Virus record (IMG/VR): IMGVR_UViG_3300031673_000167
Span: 1 to 40,999 of that record
Strand: one strand, 5' to 3'
DNA from: a virus
DNA: 40,999 nt
Shown in pieces: positions 7,971 to 30,609 of the stretch (position 1 is its first letter; each line of letters starts with the position of its first letter). Both the position numbers and the translations under genes were made by a program. The notes under the pieces were generated by a model. The model saw nothing but the letters and a program-made list of their open reading frames with translations. It was not told the origin of the DNA and ran no database searches.

Positions 7971-9122
7971 CTAACCACTTACGCCAGTTAGTATTGCGTG
8001 TTTCTTTTCCTGTCTTATCTCAAGTCCAACTTCAGATTTATACTGGTCTTTGAAGCCATCCACATCATTATTCTGGATATTTGTTTCAAGTTTTGTATCT
8101 CTTCCGCTCATATTACGGTAGTCAATTTCCTCCATATCCAGAACTGCCATATAGCCTCCATAGATAACCCCTTCAAACAGTTTGTTCATTACGAGGTTTA
8201 GTATACCGTGTATTGACATATACTTACTCACAGCAACACCATAGGTCTTTTCACCGGGAACTGTCTGTAACCTTCCAGCAGCCCACAGGTTTATTACTGA
8301 AGCAACAAGAGGCGAGCAGAATCCCCACTTTGTAGAAGAGCCATATTTAAAGGCTTTTCTAAGGAAATTCTCAAATTCCACTTCTGTCAACAGTCCGCCT
8401 GCGTCTTCAACATTTGTTTTTACGTACTCAAGCACTCCACCGGTAAATCTTTTCCTATGTGTACCATTATCATCATAACCTCTTTCACCAAACCAGAATT
8501 GTCTCTCGATATCAATAAGATGCTCAATTCCTTTCTTGTTTCTTTGAGAGTTTCTGTCCTTACCACCATGTAGTTTGGAGGCATCCTCTGTTCCTGTTAC
8601 CTCGAACGAAGTCTTGATAATCTGTGTAAAGTTATACTTGTCAACCTCAAGAGTTGATTTTGCGGCTGGTGAACCTGCCCCTTCTTCTTCAGCAGAAGCA
8701 AGTTTCATAAGTGGCTCATCATTAACCAGAGCAGCTTTAGCAGATGAACCCACCCCTCTCTCTACAAGGTTGAGAGTATTATCTGCAACAACTGTTTTTG
8801 TTCTTACAAGGAATACTTCTCCAGTTCTGGGAACTTTCCATAAGTCTCCAACTCTGAAATAAGCACCATTGTCTACAACAAATAATGTAGCATCAGCAGC
8901 ATATCCAGCAACACAATTTATGGCATCCCAATAAGGCATTATATCGTCTTCCATCCAATCGTAACGAGGATTAACTGTCTCCTTCTTAGAGAGCTTACTT
9001 GTAAGCACAGTAAGAGGAGCAGCATTTGGATTAAGCAGATATATCTTATCGGATATGTCGACAACTCTTCTGATTTGAAGTATATCTTCAGTGGACCTTT
9101 GTCCTTCTATAATTGTAGGCAT
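7971..9122 (-). CDS. Major capsid protein, SU10/DUF5309-like
   Basis: 383 aa. The order scaffold then capsid and the sequence support a HK97-fold capsid of the SU10 (DUF5309) type: an N-terminal arm (VVDISDKIYLLNPNAAPLTV), a WMEDD segment, LNLVERGVGSS, then YNFTQIIKTSFEVTGTEDAS followed by LIDIERQFWFGERGYDD, the N-x-TQI and helix arrangement I associate with this family. The C-terminal part (RQEKKHAILTGV) closes the fold. This gene and its neighbours are relatively GC-rich for the genome. No cleavage protease gene is visible, so a separate scaffold (9151-9912) is expected to guide assembly. Confidence 0.8.
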   Translation of the reverse strand: MPTIIEGQRSTEDILQIRRVVDISDKIYLLNPNAAPLTVLTSKLSKKETVNPRYDWMEDDIMPYWDAINCVAGYAADATLFVVDNGAYFRVGDLWKVPRTGEVFLVRTKTVVADNTLNLVERGVGSSAKAALVNDEPLMKLASAEEEGAGSPAAKSTLEVDKYNFTQIIKTSFEVTGTEDASKLHGGKDRNSQRNKKGIEHLIDIERQFWFGERGYDDNGTHRKRFTGGVLEYVKTNVEDAGGLLTEVEFENFLRKAFKYGSSTKWGFCSPLVASVINLWAAGRLQTVPGEKTYGVAVSKYMSIHGILNLVMNKLFEGVIYGGYMAVLDMEEIDYRNMSGRDTKLETNIQNNDVDGFKDQYKSEVGLEIRQEKKHAILTGVSG

Positions 9123-10020: not shown

Positions 10021-10317
10021 TTATATGTTTTGCTTTTTATCTAAAACAGATTTTGTCTTATCTGCATAGTTTGTTTTTGTCTTTATAAAACTTTCTATAG
10101 TCTCTATAAATTTCAATACCTCATCTAAAACTTTTATTTCTTCAATAGTCTTGCAACTCCTCCAATTGCTTTTAATTGTTTCCTTATTTTCATCAAGCCA
10201 ACTGGCAAAAACTTTCCAGCCAGTATTGTGAAGCATCATATCTTTTATCGCATTTGCTTCGGTTATTGCTTTTTTTGTCTCACTTTTAAGATTTTCAAAA
10301 TTTATTAATTTATCCAC
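10021..10317 (-). CDS. Unknown 98-aa helical protein inserted between portal and scaffold
   Basis: GTG 10317 is chosen: GGAGG sits 5 bases upstream, within the last codons of the portal gene; the TTG at 10320 is too close. The protein is lysine/glutamate-rich and helical (ITEANAIKDMMLHNTGWKVF, then SCKTIEEIKVLDEVLKFIET) with no known motif. It is more AT-rich than portal and scaffold and is followed immediately by its own terminator, so it may be a late-acquired insert, not a conserved head gene. Confidence 0.6.
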   Translation of the reverse strand: MDKLINFENLKSETKKAITEANAIKDMMLHNTGWKVFASWLDENKETIKSNWRSCKTIEEIKVLDEVLKFIETIESFIKTKTNYADKTKSVLDKKQNI

Positions 10318-12163
10318 CAAATCCTCCAGGCAATTTTATCTCTCCCCCTAGTGGCATACCTTCGGGGGACACTTCTCCAAGTGGCATTCCTCCAAGGGCC
10401 ATTCCTTCAGGTGGTCCCCCTGCTTCTATTGCTTCAACTGGCATAGCAGCACCACCTGCGCCCATAGCTTTTCTTGATGCTTCCATTCTTGATACTCCCT
10501 GTGTCAGCATTAAGATTTTATCTATCATGTCAGGATTTTCCCTTAAAAGTTGAAGTATTTTAGCTTCCTTATCATCAGCCAGTATATTTTCCGTGTCTGG
10601 GATATCAAAAGCATCACATAGAAATTTATCTATTCCATACCTGGAAACCGTAGGAGACTTTGCCAACCTGTCATATATTCCAAGTATTTGTTGCTGCAAT
10701 GCAATGTCCGAGATTGTCTTTGCTGAAACAATCGTTGGCTCAAAGCTGAAATCTCCTTGCATTTTCTCACCGGTCAGTTCTTCAAAGCTTAAGGATAAAA
10801 ACTGAGTGAACCTATGCCAGACACCCTTTTTTGTATTTTCAATCTTGAGTATAGCGGTCTTTTCTGCCAGTGGTTTAAGAAATGATATAGCATTTGAAAT
10901 TATCATCTTATTTATTCTTTCATCACCGCTTGCCATCATTTGAGATGTCGTTGTAGCTGTCTCTCCCCTGGGGGCATATCCTCCTTTAAGATATGAATAA
11001 AGTCCGGTTTTGTTTTCCATATCAGAATTTGCTATGTTTTCTTCCATAAATAGAGACCTTTTTACATCTGCTTTAGCAAATTCCCTCACTTGCTCTATAT
11101 CTGTAGCCCTTACGACCTGCGCCGGTCTTGAAACTAAATCTTCTGGATCTACCATAGCGCCTTTTCCAACTATTACCGCTGGATATGCGACTCTTTTTTC
11201 AATATCTATTCTCATATTTTTTTGGTCTTCAGCATACCTTGGGCCGTCTGCAAGAACATCAATTTCACCTAACCCATAGAAGCACTCTGGTACAACATAA
11301 TCTCTCATACCAAAAAATGGCTTATAAAATTTAAACGGATTATCTTCTTTATTTCTTATTGAATATTTCCTGTTTGCTACAGTCATTACCCTATCATTTT
11401 CCCAGTGTTCCAAGAGTTCTACGTAAGAAAGTTTTTTATCTCCCTTCCCACTTCCCTCATCAGAGCCTTTTGAAGAGGACAGTCTTAAAACCTGAAGTCT
11501 TTTACCAAGATAATTTTCCCCTTCGTCTTTTTCACTTAACTCTTCTCCTGTAATCTTATTTACTTCAGTTTCGTTATAGATTTTGCCTTTACCACAATTT
11601 GCCTTTAGATATGAAAGAGGTTTTAAAATCCTTCTTATGCAGTAAGGAGCTACCTGAATATCCATATATGTTGGCAAAATATAAAACCCGTAGAGATCAA
11701 CCCAGTCAAAAAATACCCGATCTATAAGATTGTCTGCTTCTTTCTTAAAAAGCCAACCGTGGGTGAGTATTCCAGTTCCATACATAAGGCATTGATTCAT
11801 ACTCATATCCATAGGGGTAAACAGATGATCTCTGAAATCCTTATCCAGGCTCGTCTCCATTTTTCTTGCAGGTTCCATTGCTTCTTTATCGTTTGGGAGA
11901 ACCTTCACTATTGGTTTGACATTGAAAAATCTACTCATCACCCTGGGACTTTTTGTCTGTATGTATTCCATTTCCGTAGTCAGTTTTATTGAGGACTTTA
12001 TTCCCATCTCTATATCAAAAAGTTCCTCATCTGTATAATCCCTGGAGAGATAATATTTCCTGAAACATCTCTCAAACCAGTGTTCCTCAAGATTTTTTCT
12101 CTGATTCTGTAGATATTTATATCTGGAAGTAACAAGGTCTATATAGTATTTTTTTGAAGCCAT
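10310..12163 (-). CDS. Portal protein
   Basis: 617 aa. It lies between the large terminase and scaffold genes. It has the layout of podovirus-type portals: an N-terminal helical arm (SRYKYLQNQRKNLEEHWFER), a wing with MDMSMNQCLMYGTGILTHGW, a core with RVFFDWVDLYGFYILPTYMD and CFYGLGEIDVLADGPRYAED, then RGETATTTSQMMASGDERIN, a motif seen where portal crown helices begin, and a Gly/Met/Pro-rich low-complexity C-terminus (LGGMPLGEVSPEGMPLGG). The low-complexity end may be surface exposed or disordered. Confidence 0.85.
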   Translation of the reverse strand: MASKKYYIDLVTSRYKYLQNQRKNLEEHWFERCFRKYYLSRDYTDEELFDIEMGIKSSIKLTTEMEYIQTKSPRVMSRFFNVKPIVKVLPNDKEAMEPARKMETSLDKDFRDHLFTPMDMSMNQCLMYGTGILTHGWLFKKEADNLIDRVFFDWVDLYGFYILPTYMDIQVAPYCIRRILKPLSYLKANCGKGKIYNETEVNKITGEELSEKDEGENYLGKRLQVLRLSSSKGSDEGSGKGDKKLSYVELLEHWENDRVMTVANRKYSIRNKEDNPFKFYKPFFGMRDYVVPECFYGLGEIDVLADGPRYAEDQKNMRIDIEKRVAYPAVIVGKGAMVDPEDLVSRPAQVVRATDIEQVREFAKADVKRSLFMEENIANSDMENKTGLYSYLKGGYAPRGETATTTSQMMASGDERINKMIISNAISFLKPLAEKTAILKIENTKKGVWHRFTQFLSLSFEELTGEKMQGDFSFEPTIVSAKTISDIALQQQILGIYDRLAKSPTVSRYGIDKFLCDAFDIPDTENILADDKEAKILQLLRENPDMIDKILMLTQGVSRMEASRKAMGAGGAAMPVEAIEAGGPPEGMALGGMPLGEVSPEGMPLGGEIKLPGGFGG

Positions 12164-12390: not shown

Positions 12391-14244
12391 TTACCTTCCT
12401 GTAACTGAACCTCTTTGAGGCCTCCACTTTTTTGCTTTAAAATTCCAATCCACTTTTGGAAGTAACTTGTGAAGCTGATAAGCTACCATCCCGGTTATTA
12501 CCCTATCATCAAAAGCAGAGCTTTCAGCCTTCACCTTTCCGTCTGCGTGTCGGACAAAAGTTTTCATTTCTGAAATCATTTCCGCATTTTCTATATCAAT
12601 ATCCCCATTTCGCACCAGTCCGGCAAAATCGGTTATCATTATGGGGCGCTCTATCTTTCCTGTATACCACCCGAATTTTCTGGTCTTCTTATCTGTCTTT
12701 TCATCAATCTCAATTCTGAAATAAAGCAGTGGGTAAGAGAGTTCCTTATAAAGCCTGCTGTTGGTTGCTGCTCCATAAGTATTTCTCTCCACTCCTACCC
12801 AGGCTACGTTGTAATAAAATCCAAGATTATAAATCAAATCTGCAAGTATATCCGGCTCAATTCTTCCGCATATTTCCGCAACGAGCTTGAAAGGATTTGC
12901 TCTTTTCCATACTTGCGCCACAGAGTTATCTACTTTACCCTGTATAACTTCGACTCCTTCCGAGACATCTGAAGCCACAATATAATGGACTGGCTCTTTT
13001 ATTTTTATATTATCTTTATCAATTTCCTCATATTCTTTAGGAAATTCCCATATTTTTAACTTTCCCCTGGGCTCTTTATCAAATGTTATTTCTGGTTTAT
13101 TTCCTTTATAGTAATGATAAACATCTTCCACTGTTGCCATCATCCGCAGGTCCCCCACCGCTATCGGTTCTTTAACCCTGGTTGAAAGTACCTGCAACTG
13201 TCTCTTTGAAAATATTGTATCTCCGGCAGCTAGAAATGCCTCCTCTGGTGTTGCCGGATATTCTTCCATAAATTTTGAAAGGTCGTAATCTATCTCATCT
13301 GAGGCAATTTTTCTTCTTCTCCAGTACATCTGATTATTTGACAGCCTAAACCTTTTTTTTGCCTCTACTTCATTTCCATAAAATTCGTGGTCATAATCAA
13401 ATAACTTAAAATCTTCCGGGGACTCTATGGAATACCGGTCATCCCAGTACCAGGGAATGAATACCCTTATAAATGGTGGCCTATCCCTGTATTCTCTTTT
13501 TTCCCAATCTTTTTTAAACTGCTCCCACTCAACCGCATTTAACCAGCTTTTATGAAATCTATTTCCCTGCCCCTTTGCAGTGGATTCTGAAACAACAAGA
13601 GTATTTGGACTTTTTTCAGGAACAGCATCTAGGGCTGAAGTAAGGACTTTACCCAGATTTTCCATTCTTGCTGTTTCTGAAAGATGAATATTATCCGGTG
13701 TAGAACCTCTTAGAATATCTTCATTTTTTGCTGTATCTACAACAATCTGGGATTCCAGTGAAAGTTCCGGGTTTAGACTTTCAAAAACAAAGCTGTATTT
13801 TGTATAATATTTTGTCTTGGGCCTCATAGCTGGCGGTAGATGCCTGTAGTACCTATCTGTTATTTTATATATTTGGAGTGTGGTTTTTTCATTATAGGAA
13901 ATGACATAAGAATTCACATAACGGTTTAAGATGGTCTTTGTAAAAATCACAGCTTCTATAAGTGTCGAGACTCCCTCTTTTCTTGCTTTTAAGATAATGA
14001 GCCTCACCGGAATTTTTCTTTTCCAGAGCCACTCAATTATTTCCATTATATAATTCTGGGTTCTGTTAAGTTTTAAAAGAACAAGTTTATTTTCCTGGTT
14101 TATTATGTAAAGATAATTTTCTATGAAATTACGAACAGTCTTTATAGAGTCTTTTTGCTCACGCTTTGTTAACTCTACCAAGATCAACTGTAATTCTTCC
14201 TGGTCTTTTTTCGAGTAATTCTCTTGCTCTATCTTCAAGTTCAT
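12391..14244 (-). CDS. terL: Terminase large subunit
   Basis: 617 aa. ATPase domain: Walker-A-like KARKEGVST (residues 86-94), the coupling segment IHLSETARM near residue 190 with its acidic residue, and the motif VVSESTAKGQG near 218-226. The spacer YPATPEEAFLAAGDTIF (about 329-345) is typical. The RNase-H-like nuclease has Asp426 in VASDVSEG, Glu486 in WVGVERNTYG and the final acidic pair at 579-580 in SAFDD. The protein cuts and packages concatemeric DNA through the portal. Its start overlaps the upstream gene by 86 bp; no strong ribosome site is visible, so coupled translation is likely. Confidence 0.9.
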   Translation of the reverse strand: MNLKIEQENYSKKDQEELQLILVELTKREQKDSIKTVRNFIENYLYIINQENKLVLLKLNRTQNYIMEIIEWLWKRKIPVRLIILKARKEGVSTLIEAVIFTKTILNRYVNSYVISYNEKTTLQIYKITDRYYRHLPPAMRPKTKYYTKYSFVFESLNPELSLESQIVVDTAKNEDILRGSTPDNIHLSETARMENLGKVLTSALDAVPEKSPNTLVVSESTAKGQGNRFHKSWLNAVEWEQFKKDWEKREYRDRPPFIRVFIPWYWDDRYSIESPEDFKLFDYDHEFYGNEVEAKKRFRLSNNQMYWRRRKIASDEIDYDLSKFMEEYPATPEEAFLAAGDTIFSKRQLQVLSTRVKEPIAVGDLRMMATVEDVYHYYKGNKPEITFDKEPRGKLKIWEFPKEYEEIDKDNIKIKEPVHYIVASDVSEGVEVIQGKVDNSVAQVWKRANPFKLVAEICGRIEPDILADLIYNLGFYYNVAWVGVERNTYGAATNSRLYKELSYPLLYFRIEIDEKTDKKTRKFGWYTGKIERPIMITDFAGLVRNGDIDIENAEMISEMKTFVRHADGKVKAESSAFDDRVITGMVAYQLHKLLPKVDWNFKAKKWRPQRGSVTGR

Positions 14245-16167: not shown

Positions 16168-16300
16168 CAGAAACTCCAGGATAACGCTAGACGAGAGATA
16201 ATACAGTTTTAGTAAGTTTATACACATATTACTAAAAATATTCTTAAACTGCAATATTATGATAGCTATAGAGAGAGAGATAATAATTTAAAATCGGCTG

Positions 16301-16364
16301 GCTCCTGGAATTTCCTTAACTGTAGGTCCCCACCCCACCCCTTAAAGGCAGTTCTACCAGGAGC
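16301..16364 (-). ncRNA. Candidate structured RNA or cis element in AT-rich gap
   Basis: GCTCCTGG (16301-16308) pairs perfectly with CCAGGAGC (16357-16364), closing a 64-base element that is strikingly GC-rich in its surroundings. Inside, AACTG and CAGTT can pair, and on the minus strand GTAG/CTAC offers a competing or pseudoknotted pairing. The minus strand also carries GGGGTGGGGTGGGG. Strand is uncertain: minus would make it a leader of the genes at 16.2-15.7 kb, plus would put a T-run at 16372-16377 soon after it. It is not a tRNA and matches no riboswitch I know. Confidence 0.4.
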
Positions 16365-16763
16365 ATACATATTTTTTAGATATAAAATGATATATATGTG
16401 TTGGTGGATCATATAAAAATAACTAATAGGCCTGGTTATCTACTACATATAGCAATCTATATAATTATATCTCCATATATTGATGAACTTCCGATAACGT
16501 GCATTATGTAAACTTGTAAATCTTTCTTTTTAGGCCTATCCTTACTCTTATTATATATAAATACCTATTATCTATAATAACAGCAGTAATATAATATCTT
16601 TAAAACCCCACCATAATAGCCTATATATATCTGGTTTTTTCAAGTTTTAGTATGTTGATTCTTATATAAAAACCTATATTTATATATCTAGCCTTAGTCT
16701 ATTTATATCTTATCTTTATTTATAATTTATCTTATATATATTATTACACTGTGATTTCTCATT

Positions 16764-16778
16764 AAAAGGGTTCAAAAT
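16764..16778. repeat. 15-bp direct repeat, copy 1
   Basis: AAAAGGGTTCAAAAT occurs here, just after the stop of the region-2-like gene, and again at 17053-17067, just after the stop of the region-4-like gene and 10 bp before the region-2-like ATG. The placement behind both genes suggests a regulatory site or a trace of duplication. Confidence 0.6.
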
Positions 16779-16781
16779 TCT

Positions 16782-16810
16782 TGTGGAAAATTTAAAATAT
16801 CTGTGGATAA
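16782..16810 (+). promoter_or_regulatory. Pair of DnaA boxes
   Basis: TGTGGAAAA (16782-16790) and TGTGGATAA (16802-16810) both match the complement of the DnaA box TTWTNCACA, in the same orientation and 20 bp apart, about two helical turns. They border the AT-rich gap and overlap the 3' end of the sigma-region-2-like gene. They may recruit host DnaA for replication or regulation. Confidence 0.5.
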
Positions 16811-17043
16811 CTTATATTCTTTTTTATATAGTTTATTATTATATTATTAGATACTCGCATTATAAAACGCCGGGAAGATCGCAGTTTATTACTTCTGGCC
16901 AGTTCCCAGAGCTTCAATTTTATTTCCTGGAATAGATCTTCTTTCAGTCCGGGATCATAATTTCTTATAGTGTACTCAATAGCTTTACTGTACTTATCTA
17001 TTATGTAGTTAAATCTTATCTCTATATTATCCTTACACGTCAT
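16792..17043 (-). CDS. Sigma-70 region 2-like protein (83 aa)
   Basis: The whole protein matches the layout of sigma-factor region 2: a helix (FNYIIDKYSKAIEYTIRNYD), the characteristic acidic core EDLFQEIKLKLWELA at residues 35-49 (family pattern D-L-x-Q-E-x-x-L-x-L-W), then a basic helix (SSRRFIMRVSNNIIINYIKK). It stops there, so no region 4 is fused. A region-4-like protein is encoded directly upstream. Region 2 normally binds RNA polymerase beta-prime and the -10 element. No ribosome site precedes ATG 17043, so translation may be coupled. It could also be a degenerate or regulatory relative of ECF sigma factors. Confidence 0.6.
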   Translation of the reverse strand: MTCKDNIEIRFNYIIDKYSKAIEYTIRNYDPGLKEDLFQEIKLKLWELARSNKLRSSRRFIMRVSNNIIINYIKKNISYPQIF

Positions 17044-17052
17044 TTATAGTCA

Positions 17053-17067
17053 AAAAGGGTTCAAAAT
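17053..17067. repeat. 15-bp direct repeat, copy 2
   Basis: Second copy of AAAAGGGTTCAAAAT. On the minus strand it reads ATTTTGAACCCTTTT and lies in the short gap between the two sigma-like genes, where it replaces the expected ribosome binding site of the downstream gene. Confidence 0.6.
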
Positions 17068-17070
17068 ATT

Positions 17071-17409
17071 TTAAGTTTTTTTATTTAGTTTCCTTAAGAT
17101 CCTTTTAACCAGCCGGGTCTTTCTTGATTTATAACCATTATAGGAAAGTCTTATGTACTGCTCGCAGAATACTTTGTCAACATCAGAGGCCCAGAACCGC
17201 AAGATCTCAATGTCCCTATAAGATAACCTTAATTTCAAAATAGCTTTTTCAACGTCTACTATTATTTCAATTAGCTTTTCAAAAGTGGCCCAGGGATTCA
17301 CTGCCGGCAAACCTTTATTCAGGACCATAAAAGACCCGGAAAACAAAGCAACTAGATCCGCAAGCTCCAGCCTGAAATAACTCTTGATCATCCTGCCGGT
17401 ATATTCCAT
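17071..17409 (-). CDS. Sigma region 4-like / phage late regulator HTH protein (112 aa)
   Basis: The C-terminal 45 residues, LSYRDIEILRFWASDVDKVF then IRLSYNGYKSRKTRLVKRIL, follow the sigma region 4 or LuxR/ArpU-type helix-turn-helix pattern (recognition helix with S-x-x-x-x-KSR-x-x-R and a final L-x-K-L). ATG 17409 is preferred because a TATAAT and a perfect 12-bp palindrome lie just upstream. A longer frame from TTG 17454 would add 15 residues. It is the first gene of the leftward late region, with the region-2-like gene next. The pair may form a two-part sigma factor, or this protein alone may be an ArpU-like late activator. Confidence 0.55.
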   Translation of the reverse strand: MEYTGRMIKSYFRLELADLVALFSGSFMVLNKGLPAVNPWATFEKLIEIIVDVEKAILKLRLSYRDIEILRFWASDVDKVFCEQYIRLSYNGYKSRKTRLVKRILRKLNKKT

Positions 17410-17415
17410 AAGTAT

Positions 17416-17433
17416 ATTATAGTAAATATTTAC
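17416..17433 (-). promoter_or_regulatory. Leftward -10 box and 12-bp palindrome before the sigma-like genes
   Basis: TATAAT on the minus strand (17421-17416) stands 6 bases before ATG 17409, implying a nearly leaderless transcript. The adjacent GTAAATATTTAC (17422-17433) is a perfect palindrome, and TTTAGTAAG (17438-17446) lies beside it. The -35 is not clear, so an activator or operator may act here. Confidence 0.45.
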
Positions 17434-17461
17434 ATATTTAGTAAGTTTATTCAATTTATGC

Positions 17462-17785: not shown

Positions 17786-18217
17786 ATGATTAAATTAATT
17801 GAGATCAGGGAATTGAGCCGGATCTCCGAAAAACTAAATTTCGTCTGTATTGAAAATGTTGTTGATTATTGCTTTAAAAAACCTTTAGAGATGCAGACGC
17901 TTAGCCAGGAGCATTTATATTGTTTTTGTTTAGATATAAAAAACAATATTAAAAGTATCGAAATGGTTTCTAAAGGTTCACTAAATACATCTATAGTTCA
18001 CCCTAGGGAAGTACTAAAGGCCGCTATATTAAGTAATGCTGCATCAATAATAATGGTACATAATCACCCATCAGGAGACTCTGATCCTTCAAACGATGAC
18101 ATTGAAATAACAGGACGCATAAAAAAAGCCTGCGATATTTTTGGGATCAGTTTACTAGATCATATTATTATCGGTAAAAATAATTATTACAGCTTTAAAA
18201 ATAAAGGAATGTTATAA
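17786..18217 (+). CDS. radC: RadC-like JAB/MPN-domain protein
   Basis: 143 aa, the JAMM metalloprotease-like domain alone, without the N-terminal HhH part of chromosomal RadC. The motif is complete: His92 and His94 in VHNHPSGDSDPSNDD, with Asp105 as third ligand, and Glu75 in HPREVLKAA as probable catalytic acid. Ribosome site AAGGGG precedes the ATG. Short RadC proteins are frequent on plasmids and phages beside anti-restriction genes. It precedes the ArdC-like gene by a single base, suggesting a joint role in protecting incoming DNA; the biochemical activity of the family is unclear. Confidence 0.85.
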   Translation: MIKLIEIRELSRISEKLNFVCIENVVDYCFKKPLEMQTLSQEHLYCFCLDIKNNIKSIEMVSKGSLNTSIVHPREVLKAAILSNAASIIMVHNHPSGDSDPSNDDIEITGRIKKACDIFGISLLDHIIIGKNNYYSFKNKGML

Positions 18218-18218
18218 G

Positions 18219-19061
18219 ATGCAAAACAAAATAAAAGACCAGGAAATAAAAAATAAAATTGATGATGCAGTTGAGTCTCTATTTTCAGAGCTAGAAACCG
18301 GAAAGAGTGAGCGACTTTTAAAATATTTAGAGTTTGCTGCAAGGTTCAGACATTATAGTTTTTATAATACTCTTCTAATTTATTTCCAGAATCCAGAGGC
18401 CAGTTATGTTGCCGGTTATGTTACCTGGAAAGATCAAGGCTTTATAATTAATAAAGGTAGTAAAGCAATTAAAATATTAGCTCCAAGATTTTATAAATAT
18501 TATGAAAATAATGACAAAACAGTATTTATAAATAAATATGATTCTATTCCTGATGATGTAGAAGTTGAAGAGGGAATTTATTTTATACCTGTAAGCGTTT
18601 TCGATATTAGCCAGACCACAAAAACAGAAAAAGCTAAAGATATAATAACCGATTATTACTACTCAATAGGCAATGATTTTAAAAATGAATATCTAAAGCT
18701 AAAAGATAAAATTGAAAATGAAGGTATAAAAGTAATTGAAAATAATAATGGTAGACCAGAGGGGACAGCAACCCCTGACAAAATTACAATAAAATCCACT
18801 AGGGATTATAATAACAGATTTTTAACACTTCTACATGAATACGCCCACGTGTTAGCGGATCACTCAAACGGAGAGTTTACAAAACAGGATAAAGAAGTCC
18901 AGGCCGAAGCAGTTAGTTATATGGTTGCAAAAAGCCTAGGATTAGAGAATCCATTCTCAAAAGATTATATTTTACACTGGGGAAAGGATAAAAAAACCTT
19001 TACTGAAAACCTTGAAAAAGTCCTGGAAGTAACAAATAAAATAATGGAGAAGTTTAAATAA
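18219..19061 (+). CDS. ArdC-like anti-restriction protein (ssDNA-binding + zinc metallopeptidase)
   Basis: 280 aa. The N-terminal half (about 10-125) has ArdC-N features: a helical start, FRHYSFYNTLLIYFQNPEAS, AGYVTWKDQGFIINKGSKAI and the strand LAPRFYK. The C-terminal half has a zinc-peptidase motif HEYAH (His206, Glu207, His210) and a downstream Glu230 in VQAEAVSYMV. Family members (ArdC, LtrC) bind single-stranded DNA and shield incoming DNA from restriction enzymes. Together with RadC-like and DUF2958 genes it forms a typical early-entry defence-evasion set. Confidence 0.8.
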   Translation: MQNKIKDQEIKNKIDDAVESLFSELETGKSERLLKYLEFAARFRHYSFYNTLLIYFQNPEASYVAGYVTWKDQGFIINKGSKAIKILAPRFYKYYENNDKTVFINKYDSIPDDVEVEEGIYFIPVSVFDISQTTKTEKAKDIITDYYYSIGNDFKNEYLKLKDKIENEGIKVIENNNGRPEGTATPDKITIKSTRDYNNRFLTLLHEYAHVLADHSNGEFTKQDKEVQAEAVSYMVAKSLGLENPFSKDYILHWGKDKKTFTENLEKVLEVTNKIMEKFK

Positions 19062-23912: not shown

Positions 23913-24062
23913 ATGAATATATCCAAAAAAGAGGCTATAGATATTATAGCTCAGATAATGTTTTCACATCTAAAACAAAAAGAGGTGAGTTTAAATGAAT
24001 GCAGTAAAGACAGTAGAAAATACGCACCTAGACAATATAATATATCAGAAGACAATAAATAA
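23913..24062 (+). CDS. Possible small protein (49 aa) overlapping the methyltransferase start
   Basis: GAGG precedes ATG 23913. The peptide starts MNISKKEAIDIIAQIMFSHL and ends NISEDNK. It overlaps the next gene by 68 bases in another frame, so its 3' half may not be under selection. Only a tentative gene. Confidence 0.35.
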   Translation: MNISKKEAIDIIAQIMFSHLKQKEVSLNECSKDSRKYAPRQYNISEDNK

Positions 24063-24600
24063 TAATAAAATAATTTTGGATTTATGCGGTGGTACAGGAG
24101 CTTGGAGTAGACCATATTTCTTTAATGGATATGGAATTATAAATGTAACTCTACCTTATTTTGATGTTCGAACCTATACGCCACCAAAAAATGTTTATGG
24201 AATTTTAGCAGCCCCACCCTGTACCCATTTAGCTATAAGTGGTGCAAGATGGTTTACTGAAAAGGGACAGGAAGCATTATTAGAGGCTCTGGCAATAGTT
24301 GATGCCTGTTGCAGAATTATATTAATAACTAATCCTGTTTTCTGGGCTCTGGAAAATCCCGTTGGCAGGCTTTCAAGATATTTGGGAAAACCCAAAATGT
24401 ATTTTAATCCCTGTGATTATGGCGACCCATACACTAAAAAAACTTGCCTATGGGGTAATTTTAATATACCAATAAAAAATCCTGTTGAACCAATAGGTAA
24501 AAATCCAATACATTATATGCCACCATCGGAAGACAGGGGAGCTTTAAGAAGTATTACTTCGCCAGGATTTGCAAGAGCATTTTACGAGGCTAATAAATGA
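23995..24600 (+). CDS. C5-cytosine methyltransferase-like protein, paralogue A
   Basis: 201 aa, shorter than standard m5C methyltransferases. The SAM-binding motif I is ILDLCGGTGAWS (residues 29-40). Motif IV is AAPPCTHLAIS with the PC pair that carries the catalytic Cys; motif VI is ALENPVG. A C-terminal block, YGDPYTKKTCLWG then ITSPGFARAFYEANK, replaces a normal target-recognition domain. AGAGGTG precedes the ATG. It is clearly related to the gene at 30001 in the same operon. It may methylate phage DNA or act on another substrate; the small size makes a non-standard target possible. Confidence 0.75.
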   Translation: MNAVKTVENTHLDNIIYQKTINNNKIILDLCGGTGAWSRPYFFNGYGIINVTLPYFDVRTYTPPKNVYGILAAPPCTHLAISGARWFTEKGQEALLEALAIVDACCRIILITNPVFWALENPVGRLSRYLGKPKMYFNPCDYGDPYTKKTCLWGNFNIPIKNPVEPIGKNPIHYMPPSEDRGALRSITSPGFARAFYEANK

Positions 24601-29050: not shown

Positions 29051-30004
29051 TTGTTAGAACTAAATAAAATATATTGCGGTGCTAATTCAGAAATCTTAAA
29101 ACAAATAGATAGTGGATCTATCAACTGCTGTATAACCTCTCCACCTTATTGGGCTTTAAGAGATTATGGAGTTGAGGGGCAACTCGGACTTGGACCTACC
29201 TTTGAAAAATATATTAATAAACTTTGTAATATTTTTGATGGGGTAAAACGAATATTAAAAAAAGACGGGACCTGCTGGGTAATAATTGGAGATACCTATT
29301 CAACTGTTTCCGGTAGACAGGGTAAGGGTGATTTATACGGTAAACAACCAAAATTCTCCCAAGATGCAGATAATTCAATGCCAATTAAAATTAAGACTAT
29401 TTTACCGGATAAATCCCTCATTATGATACCCTTCCGATTTGCAATAGAAATGGTTAATCGTGGTTGGATTTTACGTAATACAATTATTTGGTACAAACCA
29501 AATTGTATGCCTGCTTCGGTTAAAGATAGATTTACAGTAGATTTTGAGTATGTATTCTTTTTTGTAAAGAATAAGAAATACTGGTTTGAACAGCAGTTTG
29601 AACCAATGAATTTAGAGTATATTGGTAGATATAAATATCCCGTTTTCTCTGGCAATAAACATAAAAGTGGTATGTATTCTGTTAATGGAAGCAAGCATAC
29701 AGAAGGAATAAAAAAGCCCAATGCCGAGGGCCGCAATAAACGATGTGTTTGGCAGGTTCCACCAAAATCATTTTCAGGGGCTCATTTTGCGGTATACCCA
29801 GAAGAATTAATTGAACCAATAATTAAAGCAGGTTGTCCTGAAAACGGTATAGTTTTGGATCCGTTTATGGGAAGAGGGACTACCGCAATTGTGGCCAAGA
29901 AGCAGGGAAAGAACTTTATAGGTATAGATATAAATCCAAAATATTGTGATATGGCAAATAGGGAAATAGCAAATACATATAGGCAATTGGAGTTAATTAA
30001 ATGA
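29051..30004 (+). CDS. DNA N4-cytosine/N6-adenine methyltransferase (beta class)
   Basis: 317 aa with a TTG start, GAGG 5 bases upstream. Motif IV TSPPYWALRDYG (29-40) is near the N-terminus and motif I DPFMGRGTTAIVAKKQGKNF (270-289) near the C-terminus, the beta-class order. SPPYW suggests N4-cytosine but does not exclude N6-adenine. The central region (about 60-250) holds the target recognition part with GNKHKSGMYS and CVWQVPPKSF. No restriction partner is encoded, so it is an orphan, probably for protection or regulation. Confidence 0.85.
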   Translation: MLELNKIYCGANSEILKQIDSGSINCCITSPPYWALRDYGVEGQLGLGPTFEKYINKLCNIFDGVKRILKKDGTCWVIIGDTYSTVSGRQGKGDLYGKQPKFSQDADNSMPIKIKTILPDKSLIMIPFRFAIEMVNRGWILRNTIIWYKPNCMPASVKDRFTVDFEYVFFFVKNKKYWFEQQFEPMNLEYIGRYKYPVFSGNKHKSGMYSVNGSKHTEGIKKPNAEGRNKRCVWQVPPKSFSGAHFAVYPEELIEPIIKAGCPENGIVLDPFMGRGTTAIVAKKQGKNFIGIDINPKYCDMANREIANTYRQLELIK

Positions 30005-30609
30005 TAGATAATAAGGATAAAATTATATTAGATTTATGTGGAGGGACCGGTGCTTGGAGTAACCCCTACGCCGATAATGGGTATATCGTATATAATATTA
30101 CGCTGCCTTACTATGATTTGCTTGATGAAAAAGTTGTAAATTTTTGTATTGGTCTAAATCCATACGGAATACTTTTTGCTTGTCCTTGTGATATATGGTC
30201 TATAGCCGGTGTGAGGTTTTGGAAATCCCGGACATCTGATGAAGTATTTATGCACTCAAAAATCCTGGTTAAGGGCCTCCGGGTTATTTATAATACCAAT
30301 CCAGTGTTCTGGTGTCTTGAAAATCCTATAGGCAAAATGAAAGAATTTATGGGAGGACCGGAATATAAGTTTAATCCATTTAATTTTGGAGACCCATATA
30401 CTAAAAAGACTTATTTATGGGGAAAATTTAATATACCGATGTTTCCGCTGGGTATAGAGCCTAAAATAATAAATCCAGTTGAGCACACAGGTTCAAATAG
30501 CACAAAAAAACAGACTCCCATATCTTGGATATCCGGTAAAAATAGAAAGGAACGTAGGGCAATAACACCACCAGGATTTGCACAAACATTTTACGAGGCT
30601 AATAAATGA
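30001..30609 (+). CDS. C5-cytosine methyltransferase-like protein, paralogue B
   Basis: 202 aa, overlapping the previous gene as ATGA. Shares with the protein at 23995 the SAM motif ILDLCGGTGAWS, NPVFW-x-LENP-x-G, GDPYTKKT-x-LWG-x-FNIP and the end PGFA-x-x-FYEANK. In motif IV it has ACPCDIWS where paralogue A has APPCTHLA, so the Pro-Cys core is kept but the surroundings differ. This suggests a changed substrate. Two copies in one small operon is unusual. Confidence 0.75.
   Translation: MIDNKDKIILDLCGGTGAWSNPYADNGYIVYNITLPYYDLLDEKVVNFCIGLNPYGILFACPCDIWSIAGVRFWKSRTSDEVFMHSKILVKGLRVIYNTNPVFWCLENPIGKMKEFMGGPEYKFNPFNFGDPYTKKTYLWGKFNIPMFPLGIEPKIINPVEHTGSNSTKKQTPISWISGKNRKERRAITPPGFAQTFYEANK

Follow-up and report, generated by a model that had tools for sequence, protein, structure and literature searches.

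Region 2 of a sigma factor binds core polymerase. To our knowledge, two-subunit sigma factors have been established experimentally for one bacterial pair (SigO/RsoA) and for T4 late transcription, in which the flap protein is non-homologous. SigO and RsoA represent sigma domains 4 and 2, and their cooperation is obligatory (PMC10028694). The T4 proteins gp55 and gp33, which serve the late genes, have been described as "a split sigma" (PMC2988020), and Ltr-type late regulators occupy a described slot just upstream of the packaging genes, with direct repeats known near the 3' end of the late-regulator gene (PMC13123087). Here, we analyzed IMG/VR virus record IMGVR_UViG_3300031673_000167 over its positions 1 to 40,999 (the window, 40,999 nucleotides [nt] in all), which comes from a temperate phage and contains two adjacent minus-strand genes whose products resemble sigma regions 4 and 2. 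The initial annotation of this DNA had proposed that the two genes encode a split sigma factor ahead of the late region, and both open reading frames (ORFs) are present as it described. We lean slightly toward the view that the pair is a two-subunit sigma factor, divergent but of the SigO/RsoA kind, with the two proteins functioning as one.

The second gene of the pair encodes a protein of 83 amino acids (aa) that is almost certainly a sigma-70 region 2. It matched the PHROG sigma factor family (E 1.5e-6), TIGR02937 (E 1.1e-4), and Pfam Sigma70_r2 (E 1.5e-4; profile positions 19-68 of 71 were covered, and the score fell slightly below the curated cut-off). The match to the RsoA model was weak (E 0.02), and HTH_16 was not matched directly. 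Profile-profile comparison with hhalign placed it close to region 2 of 30 Firmicutes extracytoplasmic function (ECF) sigma factors (E 8.6e-5, a score that no shuffle reached), and its best match was to the RsoA/HTH_16 group, represented by five RsoA-like proteins (E 1.5e-5; 0 of 100 shuffles).

The first gene of the pair encodes the region-4-like protein, the ORF of which was listed from TTG 17454. The true start is probably ATG 17409, given that the homologue in a sister phage (IMGVR_UViG_3300033149_006423; loci L005, L104, and L184) begins at the corresponding residue. This homologue has an open frame, lies upstream of the same late genes, and is 31% identical to the window protein (BLASTP E 1e-12, z 16.7); the two phages are alike in overall gene order, and their terminase large subunits (TerL) are 46-48% identical. 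The region-4-like protein had no match in the hidden Markov model (HMM) libraries NCBIfam, Pfam, and PHROG. When it was combined with its sister homologue and compared, profile to profile, with 30 unbiased ECF region-4 sequences, the match had an E value of 3.4e-4, with 0 of 150 column shuffles doing as well. The AlphaFold model of the protein was weak (mean predicted local distance difference test [pLDDT] score of 51, about 60-70 for residues 51-112), and residues 51-112 had the four-helix arrangement of region 4, most of their structural matches being to sigma region 4 domains (Z about 5.5-6.6). We consider it likely that this protein carries a sigma region 4. The region-4-like protein did not match region 2 and the 83-aa protein did not match region 4 in the profile-profile comparisons, in agreement with the suggestion of the initial annotation that each protein is confined to one sigma region; its assignments thus gained strong support for region 2 and moderate support for the region-4-like helix-turn-helix (HTH).

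The arrangement of the pair follows that of known split-sigma loci. The RsoA and PRK14082 models were run over 398 Firmicutes genomes. Eight SigO/RsoA-like loci emerged (L225-L231, together with L244, which belongs to the phage collection); each encodes a region-4 protein and, after it, an HTH_16 protein resembling region 2, and in two of the eight a YvrJ gene separates the sigma genes. Because the region-4 gene comes first in these loci too, the order of the window pair is the usual one for the SigO/RsoA kind, and the "reversed" order remarked on in the initial annotation is not unusual. The window pair shares adjacency as well as gene order with SigO/RsoA, and its region-2 protein is nearer to the RsoA/HTH_16 group than to ECF region 2, although, unlike RsoA, it retains the 2.3-2.4 stretch. 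The pair also differs from SigO/RsoA in being carried by a phage and heading its late genes, in lacking a YvrJ gene, and in having a far shorter region-4 protein (112 aa versus ~190-210) with no detectable kinship to SigO. The Firmicutes Sigma70_r4 plus HTH_16 pairs (L229, L230, and L244) are similar in order, adjacency, and the separation of region-4 and region-2-like proteins, and differ in genomic context. The order also bears on whether the locus is a functionless remnant of a single sigma gene in pieces. Both ORFs share one reading frame with stops between them, both proteins are short, the Pfam score of the 83-aa protein is under threshold, and the second gene of the sister phage is barely recognizable. 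However, if a stop codon had split a sigma gene, region 2 would come first, so the pair, with region 4 encoded first, cannot have arisen in that way, and the region-4 protein has been kept in the distant sister phage, where its frame is open. We therefore regard a remnant as very improbable.

Among the comparison loci, the YvrJ-containing split sigma operons span 808-2857 in L228 and 1492-2528 in L231. An N-acetylmuramoyl-L-alanine amidase-like gene comes after the operon in L228, which suggests that split sigmas are in some cases neighbors of lysis-type genes. In the L225 genome (also L232, L235, and L243), the RsoA-like gene was matched in two overlapping frames; that of L225 may be frameshifted, with the adjoining SigO-like gene intact.

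The two genes (listed as 16792-17043 and 17071-17454) head a minus-strand packaging and head operon with the order terminase small subunit (terS) candidate, TerL, portal protein, and major head protein, as expected from their initial placement just before the late genes; a serine integrase, a repressor, and RecT-like and replication proteins lie on the other side of the window. Single-protein HTH activator candidates were found upstream of the packaging genes in other phages sharing the head genes (L057, L079, L091, L103, L107, and L110), and a late activator is therefore expected in the slot of the pair. RinA, ArpU, and Ltr of Gram-positive phages are likewise small HTH proteins encoded just upstream of packaging genes but, unlike the window pair, act as one protein with no region 2; the proteins scanned had no match to any other late-activator family. 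The pair likely controls the late genes. We infer that the subunits bind each other and polymerase and act on late promoters, of which a bipartite repeat at the locus may be one. The region-2 protein would dock on the beta-prime coiled coil and open the -10 element, while the region-4 protein would bind the beta flap and a -35-like element, and both together would steer the RNA polymerase of the host to the late genes of the phage, which lie immediately downstream in the same direction. The pair would then fill the slot in which related phages have a one-piece HTH activator. A full-length sigma factor of 220 aa (4034-4696) is encoded upstream of the late genes in L182, a phage that is more distant but has a related head protein. 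The L182 sigma gene adjoins genes for a MuB-like ATPase and a transposase; L182 is a Mu-like phage carrying its own sigma.

The T4 system offers a different division of labor, in which the region-2 protein would be a gp55-like minimal sigma and the region-4-like protein a beta-flap co-activator, that is, a gp33-like mimic of sigma region 4 that does not read a -35 element. Late transcription in T4 does proceed through gp55, which has region 2 only, and gp33 on the flap, a combination termed a split sigma (PMC2988020), and the window pair is proposed to share the work of one sigma between two proteins for phage late genes in the same manner. Unlike the region-4-like protein of the window, however, gp33 is a flap-binding co-activator that is not homologous to region 4, and T4 is a different type of phage that also requires the sliding clamp. 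We consider a T4-like arrangement quite improbable here. T4 also supplies a precedent for phage late genes driven by a split sigma, a factor that the initial annotation had called new in a temperate phage with reversed gene order.

The coordinates of the pair, its associated repeats, and the downstream genes are given in Table 1. The 15-bp repeat that had been noted after each gene is exact and occurs in two copies only within the window; when the region was shuffled 40 times, exact repeats within 400 nt reached a length of 13 at most, versus 15 observed. Together with the GTGTAA block that follows each copy, it forms a two-block element found at these two sites only, which could be a promoter for a phage holoenzyme or an operator and is treated as a candidate. 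We did not find an RNA structure signal at the second repeat or any Rfam family within the locus. Upstream of the pair, a palindrome and a TATAAT form a candidate host-type promoter/operator for the two genes. Given that TATAAT ends 6 nt ahead of ATG 17409, the transcript of the region-4-like gene may be leaderless. A scan of the region for sigma-A promoters returned fewer sites than expected by chance. A 23-nt direct repeat (87% identical; 16202-16224 and 17431-17453) has its second copy where the promoter of the region-4 gene presumably lies and could be a chance product of AT-rich DNA. The stretch of ~540 bp that separates the pair from the next ORF (16255-16790) is very rich in AT (GC content down to 23%), lacks a convincing gene, and is a likely place for late promoters. 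A more specific proposal is that a temperate phage lineage swapped a single-protein late activator for a true two-subunit sigma with its own bipartite promoter (TTGAACCC ... GTGTAA), both subunits being needed before any late gene is read; this proposal we regard as doubtful.

Table 1. Positions of the gene pair, nearby sequence elements, and downstream late genes in the window
Feature	Position	Strand	Remark
Region-4-like protein, ~112 aa; residues 51-112 a four-helix HTH	17071..17409	-	ORF open from TTG 17454; ATG 17409 preferred
Region-2-like protein, 83 aa (EDLFQEIKLKLWE ... RRFIMRVSNNIIINYIKK)	16792..17043	-	Sigma profile matches
15-bp repeat, copy 1 (ATTTTGAACCCTTTT)	17053..17067	-	In gap between the two genes
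15-bp repeat, copy 2	16764..16778	-	Just past region-2 gene
GTGTAA, second block	17033..17038	-	14 nt after repeat copy 1
GTGTAA, second block	16744..16749	-	14 nt after repeat copy 2
12-bp perfect palindrome GTAAATATTTAC	17422..17433	.	Just upstream of TATAAT 17421-17416
Terminase large subunit	12391..14244	-	Start of packaging genes downstream of pair
Portal protein	10310..12163	-	
Major head protein	7971..9122	-	

Several observations weigh against a two-subunit sigma factor. A fold search with the region-2 model, for which the underlying alignment consisted of two sequences, one of them doubtful as a homologue, returned generic helical bundles only and no sigma structure. An unbiased LuxR/GerE HTH set was nearly as near to the region-4-like HTH (E 9e-4) as the ECF set, and sequence alone therefore cannot tell a sigma region 4 from a LuxR-type HTH in this protein. 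Comparison with five SigO-like proteins, a small number of sequences, gave an E value of 0.24 in hhalign, which was within the range of the shuffles. Given the near-equal LuxR match and the lack of SigO homology, the region-4-like protein could be an ordinary HTH activator; its match to activator-like proteins of related phages was weak (E 0.028). Because repeat copy 1 extends over the start codon region of the region-2 gene, transcription from a promoter at this site would begin within the gene, a position that does not fit a simple promoter for this gene, and no such repeat was found in the sister phage. The gene after the region-4 homologue in the sister phage is similar in size and has a region-2.2-like motif, QDCIQECRLALL, where the window has EDLFQEIKLKLW; its homology to the 83-aa protein was not significant (BLASTP E 0.55, z 1.4), and it was not singled out by any region-2 profile. 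As judged by these sequence comparisons, which rest on two phages (the window and one sister), only the region-4 half of the pair has proved to be conserved in the sister phage. A claim that the whole pair is conserved there was dropped because the second gene was not statistically recognizable. A very high score of three LuxR sequences against the region-4 profile was discarded because the set had been picked by the query, and the unbiased GerE set replaced it.

These points suggest that the two proteins could be separate regulators, one a classical one-protein late activator (RinA/ArpU/Ltr-like, with an HTH that binds DNA upstream of a sigma-A late promoter) and the other a region-2-like protein that either has another role, for example in taking over the host polymerase, or is carried along as a passenger. 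The one-protein candidates in the same slot of related phages, the nearly LuxR-like HTH, and the conservation limited to the region-4-like protein all favor such a separation, as does the precedent of Ltr-type regulators, whose genes are known to have direct repeats close to their 3' end (PMC13123087). Nevertheless, the second gene is clearly a region 2 and stands directly behind a sigma-4-type HTH, in the operon pairing and order of SigO/RsoA, and for the first protein sigma region 4 is favored over a LuxR-type HTH because the neighboring gene is a region 2. We thus consider two separate regulators unlikely.

Few relatives of the pair were recovered. Direct searches with either protein gave no match in viral contigs and annotated phages, the region-4 profile found the sister phage as the sole match over 17 related phage contigs, and ~400 Firmicutes genomes yielded sub-threshold matches only, several of which were region 4 or LuxR-type HTHs. 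The RsoA group found no relative in the viral contigs, and three clade-specific scans for TerL and the major capsid protein (MCP) revealed no additional phage with the pair. Elsewhere in the window, RadC and ArdC-like antirestriction genes (17786-19061, plus strand) are divergent from the pair and lie beside the lysogeny region. Two further plus-strand genes (23995-24600 and 30001-30609) encode proteins of 201 and 202 aa with a common opening motif (ILDLCGGTGAWS.PY) and a similar layout; they are apparent paralogues within one phage genome and are possibly DNA-modifying enzymes.

If the pair is indeed a two-subunit sigma factor in the late-activator slot, it would link SigO/RsoA with T4 late transcription and would be a new case, from a virus, of the rare two-part switch found in Bacillus. 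It would also offer a very small natural system for probing what each of the two regions requires for its function, and would suggest that a split sigma factor provides the lytic switch with an AND gate.
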